Positions 3,434 to 32,755 of a stretch of 36,350 nt of DNA are shown one piece after another. A model generated the notes under the pieces. That model was not told where the DNA came from. It searched no databases and saw only the letters and a list, made by a program, of their open reading frames with translations. The number at the start of each line of letters is the position of its first letter. Position 1 is the first letter of the stretch. A program made the translations under genes and the position numbers. The stretch is from positions 1 through 36,350 of IMG/VR virus record IMGVR_UViG_3300027320_000023. One strand, written 5' to 3'. The DNA comes from a virus.

Positions 3434-3462
3434 TTGGAATCCTCTAGGGTTGTTCCGGGCAT

Positions 3463-3485
3463 AAAAAAACCCGCACTAGGCGGGT
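3463..3485 (-). terminator. Intrinsic terminator between coiled-coil protein and scaffold
   Basis: On the minus strand: stem ACCCGC, loop CTAGT, stem GCGGGT, followed by a run of seven T and then ATGCCC. It separates the portal side of the late operon from the scaffold/capsid genes. The loop and 3' flank are the same as in the terminator at 11572-11594. Confidence 0.75.
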
Positions 3486-3504
3486 CTGTTAGTTAATGAA
3501 TTGG

Positions 3505-8934: not shown

Positions 8935-11621
8935 TACTGTTCGATCACCTGTATGCGTGTGTTGTACGTTTGGATGTCGCCGTACGCTGTTCCGCCAGAC
9001 GTGTAATCAGTGAATGACGATGAGTCAATTGGCACCGAGAATGAATTTGAATTGATGCTCGTTGCGGGTAACTCAACGCCGTTTAACTCTGTCATGCCGC
9101 CGATGCCGCCGAAATACACATAGTCACCACTACTGTATGGATGCCCAGTTGATGTAATAACGGCTGGATTGGCCTTTGTGATCCCAGTGATAGCAGACGT
9201 GTCCTGTCGCCAGCATTCGACCGCGTAGTATTTACCGGTGATAAGCTGGTTTATTGAGCCTGTGTCTAAGTCGGCTTCTACCAGAGTTGCAGCACCCGAT
9301 GTAAAAGCGATATCGCTCGCTACAAATAGCGGGGTCTTAGCATTGGATGCGCTTGTGTATCGATTGAAATCGTCATAGCCAACACAGAAGTCCATTGTTC
9401 CTGTGAATAGTGTGCCGCGATAAACTATCCGGTTGTCATCAGTGCCGTTGTAGTCATCCGCCCACGCAATGGTTTTTGGATTATCTGGGGCCGTTACCGG
9501 CTCAATACACTCGTCGGTTTTAGTGACAAGCGAATCGATGCCGTACACGCTCGTATAGACCATGTAGCCGCAGTGTTTTATTTCGGGATTTCGGGAATAG
9601 CTCAGCGTAATTTCTGGGGTTGTTGTTGTGCCGGAGAAAGCCGCAGTTGCGACAATGCCGTCAGAGCCTTGACCGGCTTTAACTTGCGCCACCGAGGGTG
9701 CGGTCTCGAAAGTATCATCGACGTAATAGTATTGACCCTCACCCTGCGCGCCATCGTTGACAATGTATGACGCAATATAATTTCCGAGAGTCGGCATGCT
9801 GATTGTTGACTCGGAAAAAATCGGCGCGGATGCGTCTGGAAGCTCAGCAGGGAATTCAAAATCTTCGTAGGTTGCCGCAGATCGATCAATCCAAACCGTG
9901 GTCGAATTTACAATGATCGATGCGCCATCGGTGTTAACGTTCGGCCCGTAATGGAACCGATGCGTACCCGTAGAGTCAGTCACGAACTTGAATTCGATGT
10001 GCCAAAGTCCGTTCAAATCCTGGTACTGCTGAGTGATTTCGTGGCCACTGCCGAAGCCGGTAGCGAAGAACGCCATCTCGCCCAGCGGGCCGGAGAAAAT
10101 TAGAGTATCTGAAGCCTCATTTCGAACCCGTATTCGAACCGCGTTTTGAGTCCCGGCTTTGAGCGTCATGCGCACTGTGATTTCATCGCCGGATGATGCG
10201 GACTCGATGCGATTTAAGTAGCCGAAATTAGTCCCGACATTCGTTACAGTCACCGCGTTTTGCTTTCCAAATTCGCCGGTCGCGGATGTTACGGTCGCGT
10301 CAAGGGGCGACCCCCAATTCGTGCCAACAGCAGGGTCGTCTATCTCGGATGAAAACAAAATGTTTGCGTTGTCGTAATAAAAACGCCAATCAACGGGGTT
10401 AAGCTGCAGTCCGGTAAAGTCGTTTGTTTCGAATCGGCCGCCCGTTGCATTAGAGTGAACTGCGGGCATGTCGGTTGTATTGCCGCTCTGATCCGTTGCG
10501 GATATGCGATAAACGCCGCTAATGTCACCGCCCAGCGCAGTGTAATAAACTGGTGTCTGCTCTGCGGGAACTGGTACGCCTAAATTTATTTCCGTTACTT
10601 CAAGCTCAGCCGTGGGTGCGCTCTCATCCCAAGCGGGTGAACATGCGCCGATAGTCCCAATCGTGAAAGAGCCATCACATAAACGCAGCTCATCAAAAAA
10701 AACCTGGCGCGGCCCGTTCTGGCCAGTGTCATTCGTTGAGTTCGGGTTTTGCATACACGCGCTGTAGTTGAACTGCGTGTCGCCGGAGCAATGCCATGAG
10801 TGCTTATATAGATTTATTGCTAGCTTGTGGGTTTGTGATTCGGTGTTGTCGCCGGTATCTGTAAAAACGGGCGTGTCGTTCCCGTTTAAATACAGCTTGA
10901 TAAAGCCGTTGCTACAGCCCGACCCGCATAAGCGAAAGTTCAGTAGCAGATCTTGCCATTCACCTTTAACCACAGGGTAAGTGTATGACTCGCCTGAATT
11001 GCTGTTTGCATTAGCAAAATTAAAAACGTAATTGCTGCCAACTACCCGTAGAACCACCGCGTTGGCCTCGTTGTTTCTGCTTTCATTTTTGAAAAACTGC
11101 ATCAGGCTTTCGAAGTTCGAATTCGGGTCTGTTATCCAGTTCGAGGGAACTTTATAACTCAGAGCAACCCAGTATTCAGTGCCTTCTTTGATCTGCCAGT
11201 CGGGATTATTTTGAGGGATAGACCAGCCCTGCCTTGGTTTTTGACGACCACCGTTGTTGTTTTTAGTAGTGCCGTCACCGCCGTTAAGGTTTCGATAATC
11301 GCACTGATAATAAACGCGGAAACGGCCACAATAATCACCGAATCGACACTCAGAACTAACTGCAGAAATCCCAGCGTTTTCGTTATATGTGTCAGTTGTC
11401 TTAGGGCAGTAGCTTGTCGTGGAGTTGGCGGGAGGCAGCATCGCCCCATACCAGCCGCAGTCATTTTCAGCAGTACATGGCCCTGACCCGGTATTCGGCT
11501 GCACTCGCCCTGTCTCGAAATCCAACTTATAAATAACGCCGGATGGCAAAGCCGCACTAACATTCAGGCATAAAAAAACCGCCACTAGGGCGGTCAGGAT
11601 GTTCATTTTAAGTAGTTTCAT
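8934..11621 (-). CDS. Large polysaccharide-lyase-like protein with signal peptide
   Basis: 895 aa. Residues 1-23 look like a Sec signal peptide (basic MKLLKMN, hydrophobic LTALVAVFLCL, AxA-like end VSAA). Residues 25-330 resemble the polysaccharide/heparin-lyase jellyroll type (KEGTEYWVALSYKVPSNW, NFESLMQFF, KGEWQDLLLNFRL, FFDELRL) with many Cys, which fits an exported protein. The rest is a string of Ig-like or carbohydrate-binding beta domains. It may depolymerise host capsule or slime, on the virion or as a secreted enzyme. The start overlaps the holin stop (ATGA). An intrinsic terminator is embedded in its signal-peptide codons. The catalytic family is not certain. Confidence 0.55.
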   Translation of the reverse strand: MKLLKMNILTALVAVFLCLNVSAALPSGVIYKLDFETGRVQPNTGSGPCTAENDCGWYGAMLPPANSTTSYCPKTTDTYNENAGISAVSSECRFGDYCGRFRVYYQCDYRNLNGGDGTTKNNNGGRQKPRQGWSIPQNNPDWQIKEGTEYWVALSYKVPSNWITDPNSNFESLMQFFKNESRNNEANAVVLRVVGSNYVFNFANANSNSGESYTYPVVKGEWQDLLLNFRLCGSGCSNGFIKLYLNGNDTPVFTDTGDNTESQTHKLAINLYKHSWHCSGDTQFNYSACMQNPNSTNDTGQNGPRQVFFDELRLCDGSFTIGTIGACSPAWDESAPTAELEVTEINLGVPVPAEQTPVYYTALGGDISGVYRISATDQSGNTTDMPAVHSNATGGRFETNDFTGLQLNPVDWRFYYDNANILFSSEIDDPAVGTNWGSPLDATVTSATGEFGKQNAVTVTNVGTNFGYLNRIESASSGDEITVRMTLKAGTQNAVRIRVRNEASDTLIFSGPLGEMAFFATGFGSGHEITQQYQDLNGLWHIEFKFVTDSTGTHRFHYGPNVNTDGASIIVNSTTVWIDRSAATYEDFEFPAELPDASAPIFSESTISMPTLGNYIASYIVNDGAQGEGQYYYVDDTFETAPSVAQVKAGQGSDGIVATAAFSGTTTTPEITLSYSRNPEIKHCGYMVYTSVYGIDSLVTKTDECIEPVTAPDNPKTIAWADDYNGTDDNRIVYRGTLFTGTMDFCVGYDDFNRYTSASNAKTPLFVASDIAFTSGAATLVEADLDTGSINQLITGKYYAVECWRQDTSAITGITKANPAVITSTGHPYSSGDYVYFGGIGGMTELNGVELPATSINSNSFSVPIDSSSFTDYTSGGTAYGDIQTYNTRIQVIEQ
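11572..11594 (-). terminator. Intrinsic terminator inside the lyase signal-peptide codons
   Basis: On the minus strand: stem ACCGCC, loop CTAGT, stem GGCGGT, then seven T and ATGCC. It lies entirely within codons 9-18 of the lyase gene, where it encodes the hydrophobic core TALVAVFLCL. The loop and 3' flank match the terminator at 3463-3485. Confidence 0.7.
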
Positions 11622-15554: not shown

Positions 15555-15609
15555 AATAAAAAAGCCCGGTCAATCTCCGGGCATAAAAAAACCCCGGTTA
15601 AGGGGGTTT
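15555..15609 (-). terminator. Two tandem intrinsic terminators before the late genes (tR'-like)
   Basis: Minus-strand order: first a hairpin with stem AAACCCC/GGGGTTT followed by a run of T; then, about 10 nt later, a hairpin with stem GCCCGG/CCGGGC followed by six T. Both lie between the candidate late promoter and the endolysin gene, as lambda tR' lies downstream of PR'. This is where Q antitermination would act. Confidence 0.8.
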
Positions 15610-15658
15610 GAGGGGGAATTCTTGGGAGCGCAGGGGTCATTACCCCATTATTGATAAT

Positions 15659-18973: not shown

Positions 18974-19051
18974 TTATCCTCTCATCTTGCCGCTAAGCTG
19001 GTTGATTACTCCCCGCCCTGAAGGGCGAGGATTGCGCTCGCACTTGTTCAC
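18974..19051 (-). CDS. Possible 25-aa peptide encoded mostly by the 50-bp repeat
   Basis: GTG at 19051 overlaps the TGA stop of the NinB-like gene (GTGA). The peptide starts (M)NKCERNPRPSGRGVIN from the repeat and ends QLSGKMRG; its TAA is 3 nt before the NinG-like ATG. The other repeat copy encodes the same 16 residues from a TTG that also overlaps a TGA. Either a real small ORF or a by-product of a mobile element. Confidence 0.35.
   Translation of the reverse strand: MNKCERNPRPSGRGVINQLSGKMRG
19001..19050 (-). repeat. 50-bp repeat, copy 1 (inverted relative to 27023-27072)
   Basis: Identical over 50 bp to the plus-strand copy at 27023-27072, read on the minus strand. It begins exactly at the TGA stop of the NinB-like gene. 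It contains a 9-bp stem (TCCTCGCCC / GGGCGGGGA, one U-G pair) with a TTCA loop and ends AGTAATCAAC, resembling right ends of IS200/IS605-type elements. Confidence 0.9.
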
Positions 19052-19542
19052 CATTCGCAGCAATCTGATTCAATTTGTCGATATTCGTTTTCTTCTCTCG
19101 GATTAAACAAATTAATGCCGCGCTCCACACTCCAAGATTCATGGCGCTGCATTGCGTGAAACCGTTCTGATTTTGTTGCCGCTCTCATTCCATCCCTACC
19201 CTTTCTTGACCATGACAAACGCTCACCGTCTTTGCTTAATCCCAACCACTGAGCCGTGAAAAGCTCATGAGCGTCTGCTGCATTGAATTCGCGTGAGCCG
19301 TATGGCTTTCCGTCTTTGTCGAAGCATAAAGGCATTGTCGCGCCCTGCCTGGACATCCACTCGGCAGTTTGAGACATCCACTTTCGCCAAATTCTAGCCA
19401 TTCCCCACTTTCCGGTTGGCTCTTCTTCGGTAACTTCAACAAGAACAACTTTTCCTGCAGCGGCAAGACGGTTAGCTTCTGCCTCAGCCTTACTAAACGC
19501 TGCTGGAAAGTCGCCTATTGTCTCCGCTCGGTAGGCTGTCAT
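19048..19542 (-). CDS. NinB-like recombination protein (distant)
   Basis: 164 aa. The N-terminal VVLVEVTEEEPTGKWGMARIW...WMSQTAEWM and the later W-x-V-E-R-G-I-N-L-F segment line up loosely with lambda NinB (Orf), including the ERG motif and the VE-followed-by-Trp helix arrangement. Lambda NinB helps load recombination proteins onto SSB-coated DNA. Immediate proximity to the NinG-like gene supports this. Similarity is weak. The stop codon is the first base triplet of the 50-bp repeat. Confidence 0.4.
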   Translation of the reverse strand: MTAYRAETIGDFPAAFSKAEAEANRLAAAGKVVLVEVTEEEPTGKWGMARIWRKWMSQTAEWMSRQGATMPLCFDKDGKPYGSREFNAADAHELFTAQWLGLSKDGERLSWSRKGRDGMRAATKSERFHAMQRHESWSVERGINLFNPREENEYRQIESDCCEW

Positions 19543-19819: not shown

Positions 19820-20378
19820 GAGTGCCACCCCATTTACCACCCAGCATCATAGGCAGCTCATCAGTGAGGCTCAGGGCTTTCGAGGGGAAAGGTTTTGGTG
19901 CTTTGTTGTTAACGTCATCAACAATGCTGTTAGCGATTTCAATCAGCTTCTTCGCTTCGTATCTGAGCTCTTCGGGTGATGCGTCACGACAATCACGCTC
20001 CTGAACTTTCGACCATTCGGCTATGTTACTTTCCGGCAAGCTCTCATCCGGAGCAGTTGCGTTGTGGTCATCCGAAAACGAGTCTCCTCCGGTGGATAGG
20101 ATGCGGTAACCTTCCTGGTTTATGTCTTTAAAATTCCTTGATAGAAAAACCCACTTTTCCATGCAAGGTCTGTACACGAGAGGAAAATTAATCCATTCGT
20201 GCCCGTCTTTTTCAAATGTGGTGACTGGTATTAGATTCACATCTATCAAATAGTCCCGTATATATTCTTCGTAAAAAATATTATTACTGCTTGTAGCCAA
20301 CGCTCCATTTTTTTCTTCGTATACCTGTCCTTCTATTAAATCCTGATAGCTTCCTATAACACAAAGATACTTTTTCAT
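19812..20378 (-). CDS. Hypothetical protein (188 aa)
   Basis: 188 aa with a beta-rich N-terminal half (MKKYLCVIGSYQDLIEGQVY, VTTFEKDGHEWINFPLVY) and a helical stretch near the C-terminus (SPEELRYEAKKLIEIANSIV). No motif I recognise. Overlaps both neighbours in the early operon between the primase/nuclease block and the nin-like block. Confidence 0.55.
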   Translation of the reverse strand: MKKYLCVIGSYQDLIEGQVYEEKNGALATSSNNIFYEEYIRDYLIDVNLIPVTTFEKDGHEWINFPLVYRPCMEKWVFLSRNFKDINQEGYRILSTGGDSFSDDHNATAPDESLPESNIAEWSKVQERDCRDASPEELRYEAKKLIEIANSIVDDVNNKAPKPFPSKALSLTDELPMMLGGKWGGTHD

Positions 20379-20689
20379 TTCCTCACCTCAAAAATTAGAC
20401 CGTTTGATTTCAATACCTCAACAATGTCATCCGAATAACGCATCTCAGACATTGCCCGTTTCACTTCTCGCACCGCTAAAGTTTGCATCAGTCTGACTAT
20501 GCTGTCTCGGTGCATGTCGTAGCCAACGAATATATCGGCATTACGTAATACGCATTCATCGAGTCGAGCCTTTCCTGTGTAGTCCGGGCTATGCCTAGTC
20601 GTTTGCGGAAACAGGCTTTTGTAGATCGGGTCTTTACGATGTAGTGATGCGTAGAAGCGAGTTTCTTGGGTTTGGGTAGGCTTGCTCAT
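20375..20689 (-). CDS. Hypothetical protein (104 aa)
   Basis: 104 aa, mixed composition, with a helical C-terminal half (DSIVRLMQTLAVREVKRAM). 4-nt overlaps with both neighbours. Possibly linked functionally to the MmcB-like nuclease gene just upstream, but no motif supports a specific role. Confidence 0.5.
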   Translation of the reverse strand: MSKPTQTQETRFYASLHRKDPIYKSLFPQTTRHSPDYTGKARLDECVLRNADIFVGYDMHRDSIVRLMQTLAVREVKRAMSEMRYSDDIVEVLKSNGLIFEVRK

Positions 20690-21546
20690 TTGACTACCTC
20701 CAGAAATGGGGCTTTACGGTCAATGTCTTTCAAGGCAGCTTCGATAGATCGCAACTTTGACTTTAATCTGTTGACCTCCACATCTCTATCTATGGCTAGC
20801 GCTGCATTTCTTGCCATGCCAAGAATTTCATATGCATCTGCTTCGTCTCTCGCGCCAAGAGCCTGCCTTAACTCTGACAGTATTTGTGACGCTGAACCCT
20901 CATGACGCCTAATCGAATCATCGAAACGCTTCTTAGACTTCTCCAATCTCTCATCAAAAGACTTTTCTAGTTCCTCAATCTGTGATTTCCTGCTCTTTAT
21001 GATGTATTCAGCGTGCTGCGCATCAGAGAGCAACTCAGCCATTTCCTTTCCAAACTTCTTGCAAACCAGCTCGCTATCAATGCGGTATTTGATAATGCGT
21101 TCCCGACGTTCTGAGTGACAGCGGTCTACACCATCAATCAGCAGCTTCATCCAGGCTTTGTGAGGCAGCGTATCTATCACTTGCAATGTCGGCTTCTTTG
21201 TATTACGCCAAACGTTTTCCTTGCGCACGATTAGCCCACAGCCATCTGGAATGTCATTCTTCGTAACCATGCCGTCAGGCACAGCAAAAATCACAGCCGA
21301 TGTGTATTTTATATATTTCTGCCACTTCCCACTGGTTATGTCGCTCCTAAAATCAGACACGCTTACCTTGATCTCATAAATTATGGGCTTGAACTGCGCG
21401 TAGCTTTTTTCAAACATAAAAATATCTGGCCGGTCAGAACCAGATGGGCCTAACTGCATATCTTCCCAGACCATACGAACAGGGTTTGCTCTCAAGTGAC
21501 AGGCCAAATCGTGCTGTAACTCGTCGTGCTTCCATTGCTTGCTCAT
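20686..21546 (-). CDS. MmcB-like PD-(D/E)xK nuclease-fold protein with coiled-coil tail
   Basis: 286 aa. Residues 38-70 contain SDRPDIFMF then IYEIKVSVSDFRSD, giving the D41...E58-x-K60 triad of the PD-(D/E)xK fold. KWQKYIKYTSAVIFAVPDG matches MmcB-family DNA-repair-like proteins. Residues 165-260 form a long coiled coil (KSQIEELEKSFDERLEKSKK). It could be a DNA repair or Holliday-type nuclease acting with the neighbouring primase and helicase. The catalytic residues look complete; the exact activity is unknown. Confidence 0.6.
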   Translation of the reverse strand: MSKQWKHDELQHDLACHLRANPVRMVWEDMQLGPSGSDRPDIFMFEKSYAQFKPIIYEIKVSVSDFRSDITSGKWQKYIKYTSAVIFAVPDGMVTKNDIPDGCGLIVRKENVWRNTKKPTLQVIDTLPHKAWMKLLIDGVDRCHSERRERIIKYRIDSELVCKKFGKEMAELLSDAQHAEYIIKSRKSQIEELEKSFDERLEKSKKRFDDSIRRHEGSASQILSELRQALGARDEADAYEILGMARNAALAIDRDVEVNRLKSKLRSIEAALKDIDRKAPFLEVVK

Positions 21547-22472
21547 TTGGAGTGCTCCTTAATTTCGTCGGCCCAGTCTGCACCGATTGAATTTGCCATT
21601 CGCACCTCAACACTCATACCTTTTACTGCCAAGCGATTAGCAAGTGCGTAACCAGCTTTGTGGCCTGCATAGTTCGTGTCATTGTCGCCAAACACAATCA
21701 GGTGCTCGCACTCCGGTGGAGGAACAAACTTTTCCAAAAGTGAGGAGCTGTATGCTGCCCATGTCGGAACCTTGAAGAGCTTGTAACATGCTAAGGCTGT
21801 TTCAATGCCTTCAGCTATACCCATAACTTTTGCAGGATCAAACAGTCGGATAGCGCCGCCGTGTAGCTTTGCTATTCCTGGCATTACTTTCTTTGCGCTG
21901 GGCAAGTCTGCTTTAGTTCCATGTGCGGTTAGGTATGTAAGATGAAAAGTTAGAGGAGTACCTTCCGGAGATTTGAACACCGCGACCATTGCCGGGAAGC
22001 TGCCAAGGTATGCATTATTATTTTTCGCATCGTAGTATGGCTGTCTTGGGTGAAAGCTTAAGCAGGCTGACTTTGGCAATCCTCTGTTCTTCAGGTAGAT
22101 CGAAACAGGATTAATTCCGTCAATTGGCTTAAGTCCTTTCTGTATTTTCTTAAGCCTAATTCTCGGGTCTTTTTTAACTTCCTGCCTTTGCTCGATTGCG
22201 GAACAATTTCCAACAATCGCATCCACCTCTTTCGCTGTTGTGGCGAAATCCCAGCCGTGATAAGCCATAAGCAAGTTAAGGCCATTTCCTGATCTTGGTA
22301 CGCACTGATGGCAATACCAAGTTCCGTTTCCATTCTTGTTATCAAAACGGAACCTGTCTTTTCCTCCGCACACTGGACAAGGCCCATGAACATCTCGCAA
22401 ATGCTTTTGATCAATTCCGAGCCTTACAAGTATCTCTCCCCACTTATTACGAGCTGCGTCAATTGTCTTCAT
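21543..22472 (-). CDS. DNA primase (zinc-binding + Toprim)
   Basis: 309 aa. The zinc ribbon is at residues 32-57 (PCPVCGGKDRFRF ... WYCHQC), the Toprim domain follows with MGIAEGIETALACYK (catalytic Glu) and LIVFGDNDTNYAG (DxD). This is the P4-alpha-type primase without the helicase domain, which here is a separate gene. It makes primers at the phage fork. 4-nt overlaps with helicase and nuclease genes place it in the replication module. Confidence 0.88.
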   Translation of the reverse strand: MKTIDAARNKWGEILVRLGIDQKHLRDVHGPCPVCGGKDRFRFDNKNGNGTWYCHQCVPRSGNGLNLLMAYHGWDFATTAKEVDAIVGNCSAIEQRQEVKKDPRIRLKKIQKGLKPIDGINPVSIYLKNRGLPKSACLSFHPRQPYYDAKNNNAYLGSFPAMVAVFKSPEGTPLTFHLTYLTAHGTKADLPSAKKVMPGIAKLHGGAIRLFDPAKVMGIAEGIETALACYKLFKVPTWAAYSSSLLEKFVPPPECEHLIVFGDNDTNYAGHKAGYALANRLAVKGMSVEVRMANSIGADWADEIKEHSK

Positions 22473-23935
22473 GCTGCCTGCCCCCGCTTAGCCTTGCTTT
22501 TTGCAAACTTAATTTGCTGGCTTATAATCCAATTTCTCGTCGCCTCAGAAACGTCAACAAGCGGAGCGCCACGATAGCTGTTCGGCCATACTCCTGTTTT
22601 TTCTTTGTATTTGTGAGAAGCCCATCCGTCAGAGTAGCCTTTCTCTCTCGCCCACGTTTTCAGCTCACCATAAAAACGTGCTTTTTCGTCTGCCGTCATT
22701 TCTCGATTGGTTTTCTTTTTTCGCTTTAGCTCTTCAAGCTTGCCTTCTCCGGCCTGAACATCGGTTTGCTTATCTGGCTTAAACCCACAAGCCGGGCACT
22801 CGTGCACTTTTGCTGGCTTCAAGAAAGAGCATGATGGGCATTCTTTTGGAAGGCGCTCTTTAGGCTCAGTTTTTGCGTTTTTTCGCTCCTGGCCATCATC
22901 AAGCTTTTCATGATGGATATCTGTAACGTAGCCTAATCTGAGGTGAGTATCTGAATGATCAAACACAAGGCAATCTTCTTTCCCGTCAGCAGTTCGAAGT
23001 CCACGCCCAATAATTTGAGTAAAAAGAATTTCTGATTTAGTCGGCCTGCAAAGAACAATACAGCGCACATCCCAATCTACCCCAGTAGTCAGGCAGCCAA
23101 CATTGCACACAACCTTGATTTGGCCTGTGTGGAATTGCTTGCGGATTAACTCACGCTCTTCGCGGTCGGTGTAAGCGTCGATATAGCCAGTCGATACTCC
23201 CGCCGCCTTGAATCGCTCCTGCATATGTCTGGCATGCGCTCGATCAACGCAAAAACACAGTGTCGGCCTGTTCTCCCCGTGCTTCATCCAAAAACTTACT
23301 GCGTCAGCAACAAGGCTGCTGCCGTTCATTACCTCGGCAAGCTGATCTTCCGCGTAATCGCCTGCTCTAATTTTTACGCCAGACAAGTCAGGGTGGCTAG
23401 GCCCGTAGACTTTGAAGTCAGATAAATAACCCTGATCAATTAGCTCTTGCGTTGTCGCCGCGATAATTAAGTCGTCGTAGTATTTGCCAAGCCCTTTTGT
23501 CCACGGAGTCGCAGACAAGCCGACAAACGGAACCGCGTCCCATAAGTTCATCCATCGCTCATAAAATTTGAACCAGCGGTGCGCTTCGTCAACGACCACA
23601 ACGTCAGCATCAGGGATTTGCCTGCGGTGCAATGTCTGGATTGAGGCAACCTGAATCGGCATTGACGGGTTTGTCATGGCATGGTCTGCCTGGATAACTC
23701 CGATCTCCCTGATCCCGGCATTCCAGAACGATTGAACCGTCTGGTCTATCAGCGATACAGCCGGAACACAGAAAATAACTCGATTGTTTTTGGCTAGAGC
23801 GCCTTTGACGATGGCTTGGGCAATAACTGTTTTACCTGCGCCTGTAGGCGCTTGCACCATCGGACGAAGATGACCTTTGCCAAGGGAATATTTGAGCATG
23901 TCGAGCGCCTTGGTTTGGTGAGGTCTAAGCTGCAT
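22469..23935 (-). CDS. SF2 DEAD/DEAH-type helicase
   Basis: 488 aa. Motif I APTGAGKT near residue 31, motif II VVVDEAHRW near 115, motif III SATPW, motif VI QIIGRGLRT, and a C-terminal zinc ribbon CPSC ... CPAC. The 'LRPHQTKALDML' start is the family Q-like region. Similar phage helicases replace DnaB-loader systems or remodel origins and forks. It overlaps the O-like gene by 11 nt, so it may be recruited by that protein. Confidence 0.88.
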   Translation of the reverse strand: MQLRPHQTKALDMLKYSLGKGHLRPMVQAPTGAGKTVIAQAIVKGALAKNNRVIFCVPAVSLIDQTVQSFWNAGIREIGVIQADHAMTNPSMPIQVASIQTLHRRQIPDADVVVVDEAHRWFKFYERWMNLWDAVPFVGLSATPWTKGLGKYYDDLIIAATTQELIDQGYLSDFKVYGPSHPDLSGVKIRAGDYAEDQLAEVMNGSSLVADAVSFWMKHGENRPTLCFCVDRAHARHMQERFKAAGVSTGYIDAYTDREERELIRKQFHTGQIKVVCNVGCLTTGVDWDVRCIVLCRPTKSEILFTQIIGRGLRTADGKEDCLVFDHSDTHLRLGYVTDIHHEKLDDGQERKNAKTEPKERLPKECPSCSFLKPAKVHECPACGFKPDKQTDVQAGEGKLEELKRKKKTNREMTADEKARFYGELKTWAREKGYSDGWASHKYKEKTGVWPNSYRGAPLVDVSEATRNWIISQQIKFAKSKAKRGQAA

Positions 23936-25016: not shown

Positions 25017-25103
25017 GAGAAGAGAAGAAGAGGCGTTAAGGTCGAGTTAACCGCCTCTACTGACAAAGCCGCAATTAAGCGGCTTATGTAATTTTTATTT
25101 AGT
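25017..25103. other. Gap with two further hairpins
   Basis: Holds two inverted repeats: GAGGCG...CGCCTC with nested TTAA at 25030-25057, and AAGCCGC-AATTAA-GCGGCTT at 25066-25085, directly after the stop of the Gly-rich gene. Together with the terminator next to it this makes three hairpins in about 100 nt. No ORF. Confidence 0.5.
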
Positions 25104-25499
25104 TCAGCCATCGCCAGAGCCAGAGCCATCGCCATCGCCAGAGCCATCGCCATAGCCATAGCCAGAGCCAGAGCCATCGCCATCGCCATAGCCATAGCCA
25201 TCGCCATAGCCATCGCCATGGCCATCGCCATCGCCATAGCCAGAGCCAGAGCCAGCGCCATGGCCATGGCCATAGCCATCGCCAGAGCCATCGCCATAGC
25301 CATAGCCAGAGCCAGAGCCATGGCCATGGCCATAGCCATCGCCATGGCCATCGCCATAGCCATCGCCAGAGCCAGCGCCATGGCCATCGCCATAGCCAGA
25401 GCCAGAGCCATAGCCAGAGCCATCGCCAGAGCCATCGCCATAGCCATCGCCATAGCCATAGCCAGAGCCAGAGCCGATGTTTTTATCCAGCTTTGACAT
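25104..25499 (-). CDS. Gly-rich dipeptide-repeat protein (G-[S/Y/D/H/A])n
   Basis: ATG at 25499 with GGAGG 9 nt upstream (an in-frame ATG at 25508 sits too close to it). After MSKLDKNI the whole 131-aa protein is a run of Gly alternating with Ser, Tyr, Asp, His or Ala, ending at TGA. Every Gly is GGC and every partner codon ends in T. Other frames give Ala-Met/Ala-Leu strings, which I treat as shadows. Such Gly-alternating proteins are probably disordered or sticky, silk-like chains. Function unknown. Confidence 0.6.
   Translation of the reverse strand: MSKLDKNIGSGSGYGYGDGYGDGSGDGSGYGSGSGYGDGHGAGSGDGYGDGHGDGYGHGHGSGSGYGYGDGSGDGYGHGHGAGSGSGYGDGDGHGDGYGDGYGYGDGDGSGSGYGYGDGSGDGDGSGSGDG
25107..25475. 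repeat. Hexanucleotide tandem repeat, about 61 units
   Basis: Plus-strand units GCCATC, GCCATA, GCCATG, GCCAGA and GCCAGC follow one another without a break for 369 bp. Order varies from unit to unit, so it is a compound repeat and not a simple homogeneous one. It forms nearly all of the Gly-rich gene on the minus strand. Confidence 0.95.
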
Positions 25500-25857
25500 T
25501 TTCTGCATCCTCCAAACTTTTTGCTGCGACTTCGGAGCACGGCGTTATTTCTATGGCTTCAAGCCATTGCATCGGCACAGCTTCGACTATTTTGCTTTTA
25601 TCTTGATTGATGCCGTGCAGTGCAACCGCGCTCAATGAGATTGACTCAGCCGCGTGCCAACGCCACATTCTGCGAGCGCTTTTCAAAATGACTTCGCTTC
25701 CTGATTTCTCCGACAAAAGACCGAACCACACGCCAGCCGAGTACGTTCTAACAATGACTTTTTGTCCTATCATCGCGTTTAGCCCGCAGCTATTTTTGTT
25801 GCCGACCATCTTTGATATTTCTTTAATTTGGTTTAGCGTTAAATCGCCGATATCCAT
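25483..25857 (-). CDS. Hypothetical protein (124 aa), early leftward operon
   Basis: The preferred start is ATG 25857 (MDIGDLTLNQIKEISKM), with GAGGGA 6 nt upstream. The longer open frame to 25992 runs through a terminator and a tRNA-like element and is not credible. Beta-rich core (GQKVIVRTYSAGVWFGLLSE, AARR-type RRMWRWHAAESISLSAVALHG) resembling a small conserved phage protein that contains the 'VRTYSAGVWFG' pattern. No function known to me. Overlaps the start of the repeat gene. Confidence 0.65.
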   Translation of the reverse strand: MDIGDLTLNQIKEISKMVGNKNSCGLNAMIGQKVIVRTYSAGVWFGLLSEKSGSEVILKSARRMWRWHAAESISLSAVALHGINQDKSKIVEAVPMQWLEAIEITPCSEVAAKSLEDAENVKAG

Positions 25858-26595: not shown

Positions 26596-26927
26596 GCACT
26601 AAAGACAAAATTGTAAAACTGCTGGAAGCCATGAATGAAGAAGTATTCATGGACGCCTTCAACGACATCGCAATGGGCCAGGAAGCGCTGATTAAGGAAT
26701 TCTTCATCGCAGCTTTTAAAAGCCGAGGCGTGAATGACGAGCAATACAAGACTGACGCGTATCTGCTTGCTGGTGCTCTGCTCAACAACGTAATGGACTA
26801 CTTCGAGAAGTATCACGCTGATGAGCTGAGCGACGAAGTGGGCGACGAACCCGACAGCACAAGTCACTACGACACTGCTCGGGCCGATGATATCAACGCT
26901 CAGCTTAAAGTGGGGTATGCGTCATGA
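26592..26927 (+). CDS. Acidic hypothetical early protein (111 aa)
   Basis: Mostly helical and acidic (KIVKLLEAMNEEVFMDAFND, MDYFEKYHADELSDEVGDE). Coupled by ATGA overlaps on both sides. Small acidic early proteins are often host- or defence-inhibiting in phages, but nothing in the sequence shows that here. Confidence 0.65.
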   Translation: MSTKDKIVKLLEAMNEEVFMDAFNDIAMGQEALIKEFFIAAFKSRGVNDEQYKTDAYLLAGALLNNVMDYFEKYHADELSDEVGDEPDSTSHYDTARADDINAQLKVGYAS

Positions 26928-27025
26928 GCAACCAGACTAAAGCAATCTTAACCGAGCTATCCGCACTGTTCCTTTTCCTCGGCGGCTCTCTCTTCTTCAT
27001 TTTAGTAGTAGGTTCGGCAGCTTGA
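26924..27025 (+). CDS. Small single-TM protein (33 aa)
   Basis: MSNQTKAILTEL followed by one hydrophobic segment (SALFLFLGGSLFFILVVGSA). ATGA overlap with the upstream gene. Its TGA stop is the first triplet of the second copy of the 50-bp repeat. Confidence 0.6.
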   Translation: MSNQTKAILTELSALFLFLGGSLFFILVVGSAA

Positions 27026-27165
27026 ACAAGTGCGAGCGCAATCCTCGCCCTTCAGGGCGGGGAGTAATCAACGAACACGAATTCGACTCCGGCATCATGC
27101 GAGGCATTTTGATTTACTGCGCATCGTGGGTCGCAATGTACGGGATATTTTGGTGGGTATTATGA
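27022..27165 (+). CDS. Possible 47-aa protein starting in the 50-bp repeat
   Basis: TTG at 27022 overlaps the upstream TGA (TTGA). Residues 2-17 (NKCERNPRPSGRGVIN) come from the repeat; then comes a unique part with a membrane segment (MRGILIYCASWVAMYGIFWW). An internal ATG at 27094 is an alternative start for the membrane part only. Its TGA overlaps the next start. The shared N-terminus with the peptide at 18974-19051 is the notable feature. Confidence 0.4.
   Translation: MNKCERNPRPSGRGVINEHEFDSGIMRGILIYCASWVAMYGIFWWVL
27023..27072 (+). repeat. 50-bp repeat, copy 2
   Basis: Identical to the reverse complement of 19001-19050. Starts at the TGA stop of the 33-aa gene, contains the TTCA-loop hairpin (stem of 9 bp with one wobble) and ends AGTAATCAAC. 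Flanks beyond the 50 bp differ completely between the two copies. Confidence 0.9.
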
Positions 27166-31776: not shown

Positions 31777-31983
31777 ATGAACTGTAAATGCTGCGGTCAG
31801 GAGATTAAGCCATCATTGTCAATCGAAGAATACGAACGCAGAGCAGTGCCCAGGCTGGCAGCCATTGATAGGCTTTGGGACAGGATACAGCGAGAAAATT
31901 TAAATCCGTTCGACCCAGTATACGAGAGATACGAGCGCTTAATGAAAGAGCAAGGCGATGATGAAGTTGCGGCGGGCTTGTAG
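31777..31983 (+). CDS. Small zinc-ribbon protein (68 aa)
   Basis: Starts MNCKCCGQEIKPSLSIEEYE: one CxCC motif followed by a helical, charged body (RLWDRIQRENLNPFDPVYER). AAGGATA upstream. Its TAG shares a base with a GTG (TAGTG) that opens a 14-codon ORF to 32027, ending in the start of the next gene. Function unknown. Confidence 0.55.
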   Translation: MNCKCCGQEIKPSLSIEEYERRAVPRLAAIDRLWDRIQRENLNPFDPVYERYERLMKEQGDDEVAAGL

Positions 31984-32023
31984 TGAAACGCGAATTCAAA
32001 ACGGCAAACCAAGGGGAATTATT

Positions 32024-32755
32024 TTGAACGATAAAATAGAAATCATCGGATACAAGGCATTTGATAACGACCTCAAGTGCCGAGGCTTTCAGTACGAAAT
32101 CGGAAAGTCGTACAAGCAGGATGGAGACATTCAAGTCTGCGAAAACGGTTTCCACTTTTGCGAAAATCCGCTAGACGTTCTATCGTACTACGATTTAACA
32201 ACTAGCCGTTTCGCAGTCGTCTCAGGCTCTAGTAATTCAAGCAAGTGCGACGACGATTCAAAAATAGCAACTGCGGAAATTACGATAAAAGCGGAGCTGA
32301 AGCTGCCGGATTTTATCAAGAAGTCCGTTGATTATCTGCTATCGGCTTGCGGCAAAGAGACAGCAGCCAGTGGGGATTGCTCACAGCTCGCAGCCAGTGG
32401 GGATGACTCACAGCTCGCAGCCAGTGGGTATCGCTCAAAGCTCGCAGCCAGTGGGTATCGCTCAAAGCTCGCAGCCAGTGGGTATCGCTCACAGCTCGCA
32501 GCCAGTGGGGATCGCTCACAGCTCGCAGCCAGTGGGGATTGCTCACAGCTCGCAGCCAGTGGGGATGACTCAGTGGTTATGTCATGCGGTTTAAGGTCGA
32601 AAGCAAAAGCCGGAAAAGACGGCGCAATTGCCCTGACATACAAAGACGAGCATGGTCGTTTCCGAATAGCTGTCGGTTACATCGGAGAGGGCTTGAAAGC
32701 TGGAACGTTTTACAAAGTAAATAGCTCTGGTGAATTTTTGGAGCTATCGAAATGA
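32024..32755 (+). CDS. DUF7666-like protein with 9-residue tandem repeats
   Basis: 243 aa from TTG 32024 (AAGGGGA 6 nt upstream). N-terminal 100 residues (IEIIGYKAFDNDLKCRGFQY, CENGFHFCENPLDVLSYYD, DSKIATAEITIKAELKL) match the phage DUF7666-type domain. Then eight repeats AASG-(D/Y)-(C/D/R)-S-(Q/K)-L and a terminal domain (AIALTYKDEHGRFRIAVGYI). The repeats look like a short left-handed or pentapeptide-type beta-helix. Repeats varying at a few positions are typical of this family. Function unknown. Confidence 0.6.
   Translation: MNDKIEIIGYKAFDNDLKCRGFQYEIGKSYKQDGDIQVCENGFHFCENPLDVLSYYDLTTSRFAVVSGSSNSSKCDDDSKIATAEITIKAELKLPDFIKKSVDYLLSACGKETAASGDCSQLAASGDDSQLAASGYRSKLAASGYRSKLAASGYRSQLAASGDRSQLAASGDCSQLAASGDDSVVMSCGLRSKAKAGKDGAIALTYKDEHGRFRIAVGYIGEGLKAGTFYKVNSSGEFLELSK
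32363..32575 (+). repeat. 27-bp tandem repeat, about 8 units
   Basis: Units begin GCAGCCAGTGGG at 32363, 32390, 32417, 32444, 32471, 32498, 32525 and 32552, exactly 27 bp apart; the last is partial. They differ at a few positions only (GGAT/GTAT, TGC/GAC/CGC, ACAG/AAAG). Being in frame, they encode the 9-residue repeats. Confidence 0.95.

Follow-up and report, generated by a model that had tools for sequence, protein, structure and literature searches.

Two copies of a 50-bp repeat in a tailed-phage genome

The window, by which the whole analysed stretch of 36,350 bases from a virus record is meant, encodes portal and terminase proteins that point to the tailed phages, with relatives in the phage collection that are only about 30% identical. 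Comparison of the window with itself located a 50-bp repeat at 19001-19050 (minus strand) and 27023-27072 (plus strand). The two copies lie in opposite orientation within dissimilar flanks, are identical at 50/50 positions and represent the sole inverted pair of at least 50 bp in the window; an exact match of this length by chance is excluded. Copy 1 begins at the TGA of an ORF (19048-19542, minus strand) with a weak match to NinB/Orf (phrog_72, E 2e-5), and a NinG-like HNH gene (phrog_5034) is found downstream of it. For copy 2 the start is the TGA that closes a 33-aa ORF (26924-27025, plus strand), and both copies are in sense orientation relative to their own operons. The 50-mer is predicted to fold with -19.1 kcal/mol as RNA (z -2.7) and -9.3 kcal/mol as DNA. 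Identical copies with unrelated flanks, their start at the stop codons of two different genes, their sense orientation and a 9-bp hairpin with a TTCA loop had all been described in an earlier note on this DNA, and each of these descriptions held. The features in the window are as follows:

27028-27071, plus strand: copy 2 of the very probable terminal-only IS200/IS605 derivative; 44-bp core AAGTGCG...TAATCAA, an exact repeat that matches an element in the sister contig G001 at its left end (LE, 40/40) and right end (RE, 23/23) and is present at the same site, identical, in G001
19002-19045, minus strand: copy 1 of the very probable terminal-only derivative; 44-bp core identical to that of copy 2
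27023-27027, plus strand: insertion motif TGAAC, left flank of copy 2; the 33-aa ORF ends at its TGA
19046-19050, minus strand: insertion motif TGAAC of copy 1; the NinB-like ORF 19048-19542 ends at its TGA
27042-27063, plus strand: single 9-bp hairpin with TTCA loop of copy 2, found in RNA and DNA folds
19010-19031, minus strand: single 9-bp hairpin of copy 1, same sequence as the copy 2 hairpin
27049-27062, plus strand: 14-bp sequence CCTTCAGGGCGGGG, common to LE and RE of the parent by sequence comparison; presumed crossover of the core deletion

Further repeats were observed in the window. Three intergenic 40-bp repeats (3458-3497, 11567-11606 and 15580-15619) have GGCATAAAAAAACC in common and differ in their self-complementary stems; on the minus strand they resemble operon terminators with the conserved tail TTTTTTTATGCC. 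A long 6-bp-phased repeat tract at 25029-25541, in which several frames are open (GDGSGYG / ALAMAMA / RARAIAI), has another length in the sister contig, and a 27-bp tandem repeat at 32336-32626 comprises 8 copies of (D/Y)xSQLAASG-like units within ORF 31958-32755.

An intact tnpB element in a sister phage

The earlier note had proposed a search of phage and bacterial genomes. Scans of the IMG/VR viral contigs with exact and degenerate forms of the 50-mer returned a sole match, contig IMGVR_UViG_3300027790_000098 (G001; 15,947 bases, loci L010 and L001), and the exact-type pattern had no match in genome_contigs. G001 is collinear with the window in reverse, with about 93-98% identity across most shared blocks. 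It contains three matches to the repeat, one of which is the identical 50-mer at the same place as copy 2, in a 614-bp block that is 97.4% identical to the window. Judged from sequence, copy 2 has thus been conserved vertically between the two phages. At the locus of copy 1, which lies close to the end of the contig, G001 has a different NinB-type gene. The two other matches are both ends of one element:

G001:387-1534, minus strand: intact tnpB-only element, 1,148 bp from TGAAC to the end of TCAA

The left end of this element reads TTGAAC-AAGTGCGAGCGCAATCCTCGCCCTTCAGGGCGGGG-TCAAGCG... and is followed by a 351-aa ORF; its right end reads ...GAAT-CCCCGTCCTTCAGGGCGGGG-AGTAA-TCAA. The 351-aa product is an RNA-guided TnpB (NCBIfam NF040570, E 9e-67) with RuvC/TNB domains and Pfam matches to Cas12f1-like_TNB (E 2e-20) and OrfB_IS605 (E 9e-15). 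A tnpB gene with the same right end, for which the earlier note had suggested to look, is hereby found (tail identical at 23/23 positions). As a Y1 transposase (PF01797) is absent from both the window and G001, the element is classified as a tnpB-only, IS1341-type member of the IS200/IS605 family; a Y1 transposase with matching ends was not located. The parent element was seen in this one contig. Relatives of its TnpB reach 46-57% identity in other viral contigs and no more than 50% on plasmids, and genome_contigs gave a single match at 34%; a closer source element was not found in these three collections.

Two side observations concern the sister contig. In its TnpB (L010:430-1485, minus strand) the RuvC glutamate is missing at the usual place, where IVVGDV replaces the VVED-type motif. 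The same holds for six relatives, and an invariant Glu288 is located just ahead of the zinc-finger cysteines, so that these proteins may represent a TnpB group whose catalytic site is rearranged. In addition, a DNA cytosine methylase-like gene (L001:5678-6433) that is absent from the window lies between the homologues of window ORFs 20686-21546 and 20375-20689 and constitutes a gene-cassette difference between the sister phages.

The repeat as a fusion of left and right element ends

Bases 1-40 of the 50-mer are identical to the left end of the G001 element (40/40) and bases 27-49 to its right-end tail (23/23); the 14 bp in the overlap (bases 27-40, CCTTCAGGGCGGGG) lie within the end hairpins and are common to both ends. 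This comparison identifies the 50-mer as a left-end/right-end fusion. The resemblance to IS200/IS605 elements reported in the earlier note is therefore real, given that a sister phage carries an intact tnpB element whose ends match, but the 50-mer is not a right end alone, and the option of a solo IS end does not hold, since 40 of the 50 bases derive from the left end. Among the options listed there, the non-autonomous mobile element is the one that the intact relative supports. We are confident that the repeat is a core-deletion, terminal-only (PATE-like) derivative of a tnpB-only IS200/IS605 (IS1341-type) element. The hairpin and both outer ends, identical to those of the tnpB element in G001, provide the end palindrome of IS605-type that defines such derivatives, and the 14 identical bases by which left and right end overlap suggest that the core was lost between the end palindromes. 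The resulting 44-bp core contains one hairpin and no gene and is too short to code; the two separate hairpins and the transposase gene of an autonomous IS are both missing. The right-left junction of an excised circle was also considered and rejected: the order is left end and then right end, which indicates an internal deletion.

TGAAC is the retained target and lies outside the 44-bp unit, because the bases that precede it differ at the three insertions (CT-, GG- and GT-TGAAC). The final C probably belongs to the flank, as base +1, since T occupies this position at the intact element in G001. IS608 favours C at +1 (PMC5934647), and by analogy such a preference may account for the C at both window copies. 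Empty sites were recovered neither for the two window insertions nor for the G001 element, which leaves the boundaries uncertain by 1-2 nt. Searches for a second close relative via the 111-aa neighbour, the NinB-like neighbour or the frame beside the G001 element found none. The reading frame around the G001 insertion permits more than one restoration, and boundaries after TGAACA or after TGAA would also fit.

Comparison with known IS605-type elements

Terminal-only PATEs are already known. In Haloquadratum walsbyi, 52-bp examples (HqIRS46, ISHwa23) arose from IS605-type elements by deletion between palindromes of 19-22 bp (PMC3119063). ISHwa23, a 1,500-bp element with TnpB, was reduced to a 52-bp terminal-only PATE via a 19-bp palindrome repeat, and its six strain-specific copies are all short (PMC3119063). 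As in these archaeal elements, an IS605/IS1341-type element was apparently cut to about 50 bp by deletion between near-terminal palindromes, leaving one palindrome, no gene and several short copies. In contrast to the chromosomal PATEs of H. walsbyi, the element described here resides in a tailed-phage genome, has another sequence and uses TGAAC as its target; the identity at the crossover is 14 bp instead of 19-22 bp, and the window has only two sites. Here the setting is a bacteriophage, and the parent is visible in a sister phage.

The 50-mer shares with this G001 parent the identical 40 bp of the left end, the identical 23-bp right-end tail and the TGAAC motif. Unlike the 44-mer, the parent is 1,148 bp long, encodes a 351-aa TnpB, has two hairpins, occupies another genomic site and is followed by T instead of C at +1. 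Its right end (GAAT-hairpin-AGTAA-TCAA) contains GAAT and TCAA, which in IS608 serve as guide and cleavage sequence of the right end (PMC5934647). The pentanucleotide left target is reminiscent of ISDra2, although the motif is TGAAC and not TTGAT. IS608 and ISDra2 have a hairpin at each end, whereas the derivative has a single hairpin and no tnpA. A PATE in the archaeal virus HRTV-DL1 likewise sits in the genome of a tailed virus, either between ORFs or overlapping them; unlike the 44-mer it is 489 bp long, shared with the host and strongly transcribed (PMC10544981).

Target motif and stop codons

Each of the three insertions has TGAAC on its 5' side, in the contexts CTTGAAC and GGTGAAC for the window copies and GTTGAAC for the G001 element, and the motif is not repeated at the right. 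On both strands of the window there are 66 TGAAC sites, of which 59 lie within genes and 7 outside according to the gene list used here; three are at stop codons, and the mini-elements fill two of these three. The TGA of these stop codons belongs to the insertion target. The start of both repeats at a stop codon is explained by a target that contains TGA together with selection against broken genes, and does not call for a function. The element probably has none for the phage.

All three insertions are oriented with local transcription. GC and AT skew, computed across the whole window, switch sign near 26 kb (window position about 26000), where transcription diverges, and both mini-elements and the full element of G001 read away from this switch. 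With three cases only, this is suggestive of strand-specific insertion.

Related ends in other genomes

Similar hairpins with GAGTAGTCAAC ends occur 3' of genes annotated as 'transposase' in many mycobacteriophages, where they flank TnpB genes, and left-end hairpins are found 5' of tnpB on plasmids of Azotobacter, Neptuniibacter, Cupriavidus and Stutzerimonas. Near-matches in Azotobacter and Sinorhizobium were considered as instances of the same fusion and rejected, being left-end-like or decayed sequences. One of them, on Sinorhizobium meliloti pSymA (L005:2999-3045), is a left-end-like GTTGAACAAATTCCGAGCGCAATCCTCTCCCTTCAGGGCAGGG, 88% like the 50-mer, that directly follows the stop of ORF 1893-2999 with no recognisable tnpB ORF alongside; it is probably a decayed relative. 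A hairpin CGCAATCCCCGCCCTGAAGGGCGGGGAGCAGTCAAG on the IncN plasmid NZ_CP018887.1 (L032:2501-2535), near ccgAI and stbABC, is 86% like the 50-mer. It is intergenic on IncN-type plasmids of Klebsiella/Escherichia; no tnpB is annotated within 2.5 kb of it, and it is possibly another solo or terminal-only IS605 remnant.

Proposed history and the origin of the second copy

The following history can be envisaged. An ancestral element of about 1.15 kb would have inserted next to TGAAC, on its 3' side. The tnpB core would then have been lost when the near-identical subterminal hairpins recombined, or slipped during replication, across their 14 bp of identity, so that 44 bp remained, consisting of the left end through the hairpin and the right-end tail AGTAATCAA. 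The derivative retains a single hairpin, together with the target motif on its left and the terminal TCAA on its right. Sites at which TGAAC overlaps a stop codon would have allowed it to persist, as insertion there disrupts no gene. The parent belongs to a family that is moved as single-stranded DNA by a Y1 transposase (TnpA). As no TnpA is encoded in the window or in G001, it would have acted in trans, supplied by the host.

Within this explanation the second copy could have originated in two ways. Transposition of the 44-bp form at TGAAC sites, with TnpA in trans, has close to an even chance. Independent collapse of two full-length insertions is a tentative alternative that falls somewhat short of even. 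With the crossover fixed by the 14-bp identity, every collapse would yield the same product, so the identity of the copies is no proof of short-form mobility. Moreover, a full-length element is present in the lineage at a third site (in G001), and complete copies in Haloquadratum repeatedly lose their cores (PMC3119063). On the other hand, two collapses need two insertions and two deletions as opposed to one deletion and one transposition, and the six strain-specific ISHwa23 insertions, all already short, were read by the authors as possible mobility of the short form; the same ambiguity on the origin of short copies was noted there (PMC3119063). In IS608, both ends carry a hairpin to which TnpA binds (PMC5934647). 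By analogy, the single hairpin of the 44-mer, whose 5' foot is the left-end CAAT and not the right-end GAAT, would count against mobility of the short form.

Other explanations for the repeat

The earlier note had also raised a guide-RNA-like role. Each copy would be transcribed with its operon and supply TnpB with a short omega-RNA in which the bases that follow TCAA act as the guide. The last 23 bases are indeed right-end sequence, corresponding to the omega-RNA 3' end, of the TnpB element in G001, both copies lie sense in operons and other PATEs are transcribed, the 489-bp one of HRTV-DL1 strongly (PMC10544981). TnpB guide RNAs (reRNAs), however, are about 150 nt long and consist of the tnpB 3' end and the right end (PMC8612924). 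Everything 5' of the 3' part of the hairpin is derived from the left end, which leaves only 23 right-end bases in place of a scaffold of about 130 nt. A search of the window for TnpB gave nothing credible, only two sub-threshold matches within a helicase-like ORF (22469-23935) and the NinG-like HNH ORF. With nearly the whole omega-RNA scaffold missing, a guide-RNA role is very unlikely.

Equally improbable is a conserved phage RNA hairpin that was selected at two gene ends for mRNA stability, attenuation or translational control and resembles an IS only incidentally. The stable fold (-19 kcal/mol), the sense orientation in both operons and the identity of copy 2 in G001 would fit such a regulator, but the 0/50 differences at copy 2 are uninformative because its flanks diverge by only about 2.6%, and the first 40 bases of the 50-mer recur at another site of G001 as the left end of a tnpB element. 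In other phages, NinB-like homologues (46-59% identity) lack the element 3' of the gene, where readable, a comparison that the earlier note had suggested. A scan of the 50-mer against Rfam gave no match. As for an intrinsic terminator, the hairpin is followed by AGTAATCAAC with no T-run and does not appear in the terminator scan; this form of the regulatory option was rejected. The fallback of a simple conserved peptide was abandoned as well, since the element lies behind stop codons and its DNA sequence is the same in both contexts.

Finally, a REP/REPIN-type element moved by TnpA_REP (RAYT) would share the single hairpin and the Y1/HUH-related biology (PMC8266576), but is hardly tenable given that no GTAG motif precedes the hairpin, the ends are those of a tnpB element and not of a REP, and there are only two copies.

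Implications

Two sister phage contigs offer parent and product side by side and illustrate the probable collapse of a phage TnpB element to a 44-bp, scar-like repeat. Short hairpins common to phage operons may accordingly be remnants of TnpB elements and not regulators or guide RNAs. If the 44-bp form is mobile, it would rank with the smallest transposable elements in nature, one in which a single hairpin serves as both IS200/IS605 ends, and would challenge the two-hairpin rule of transposition.
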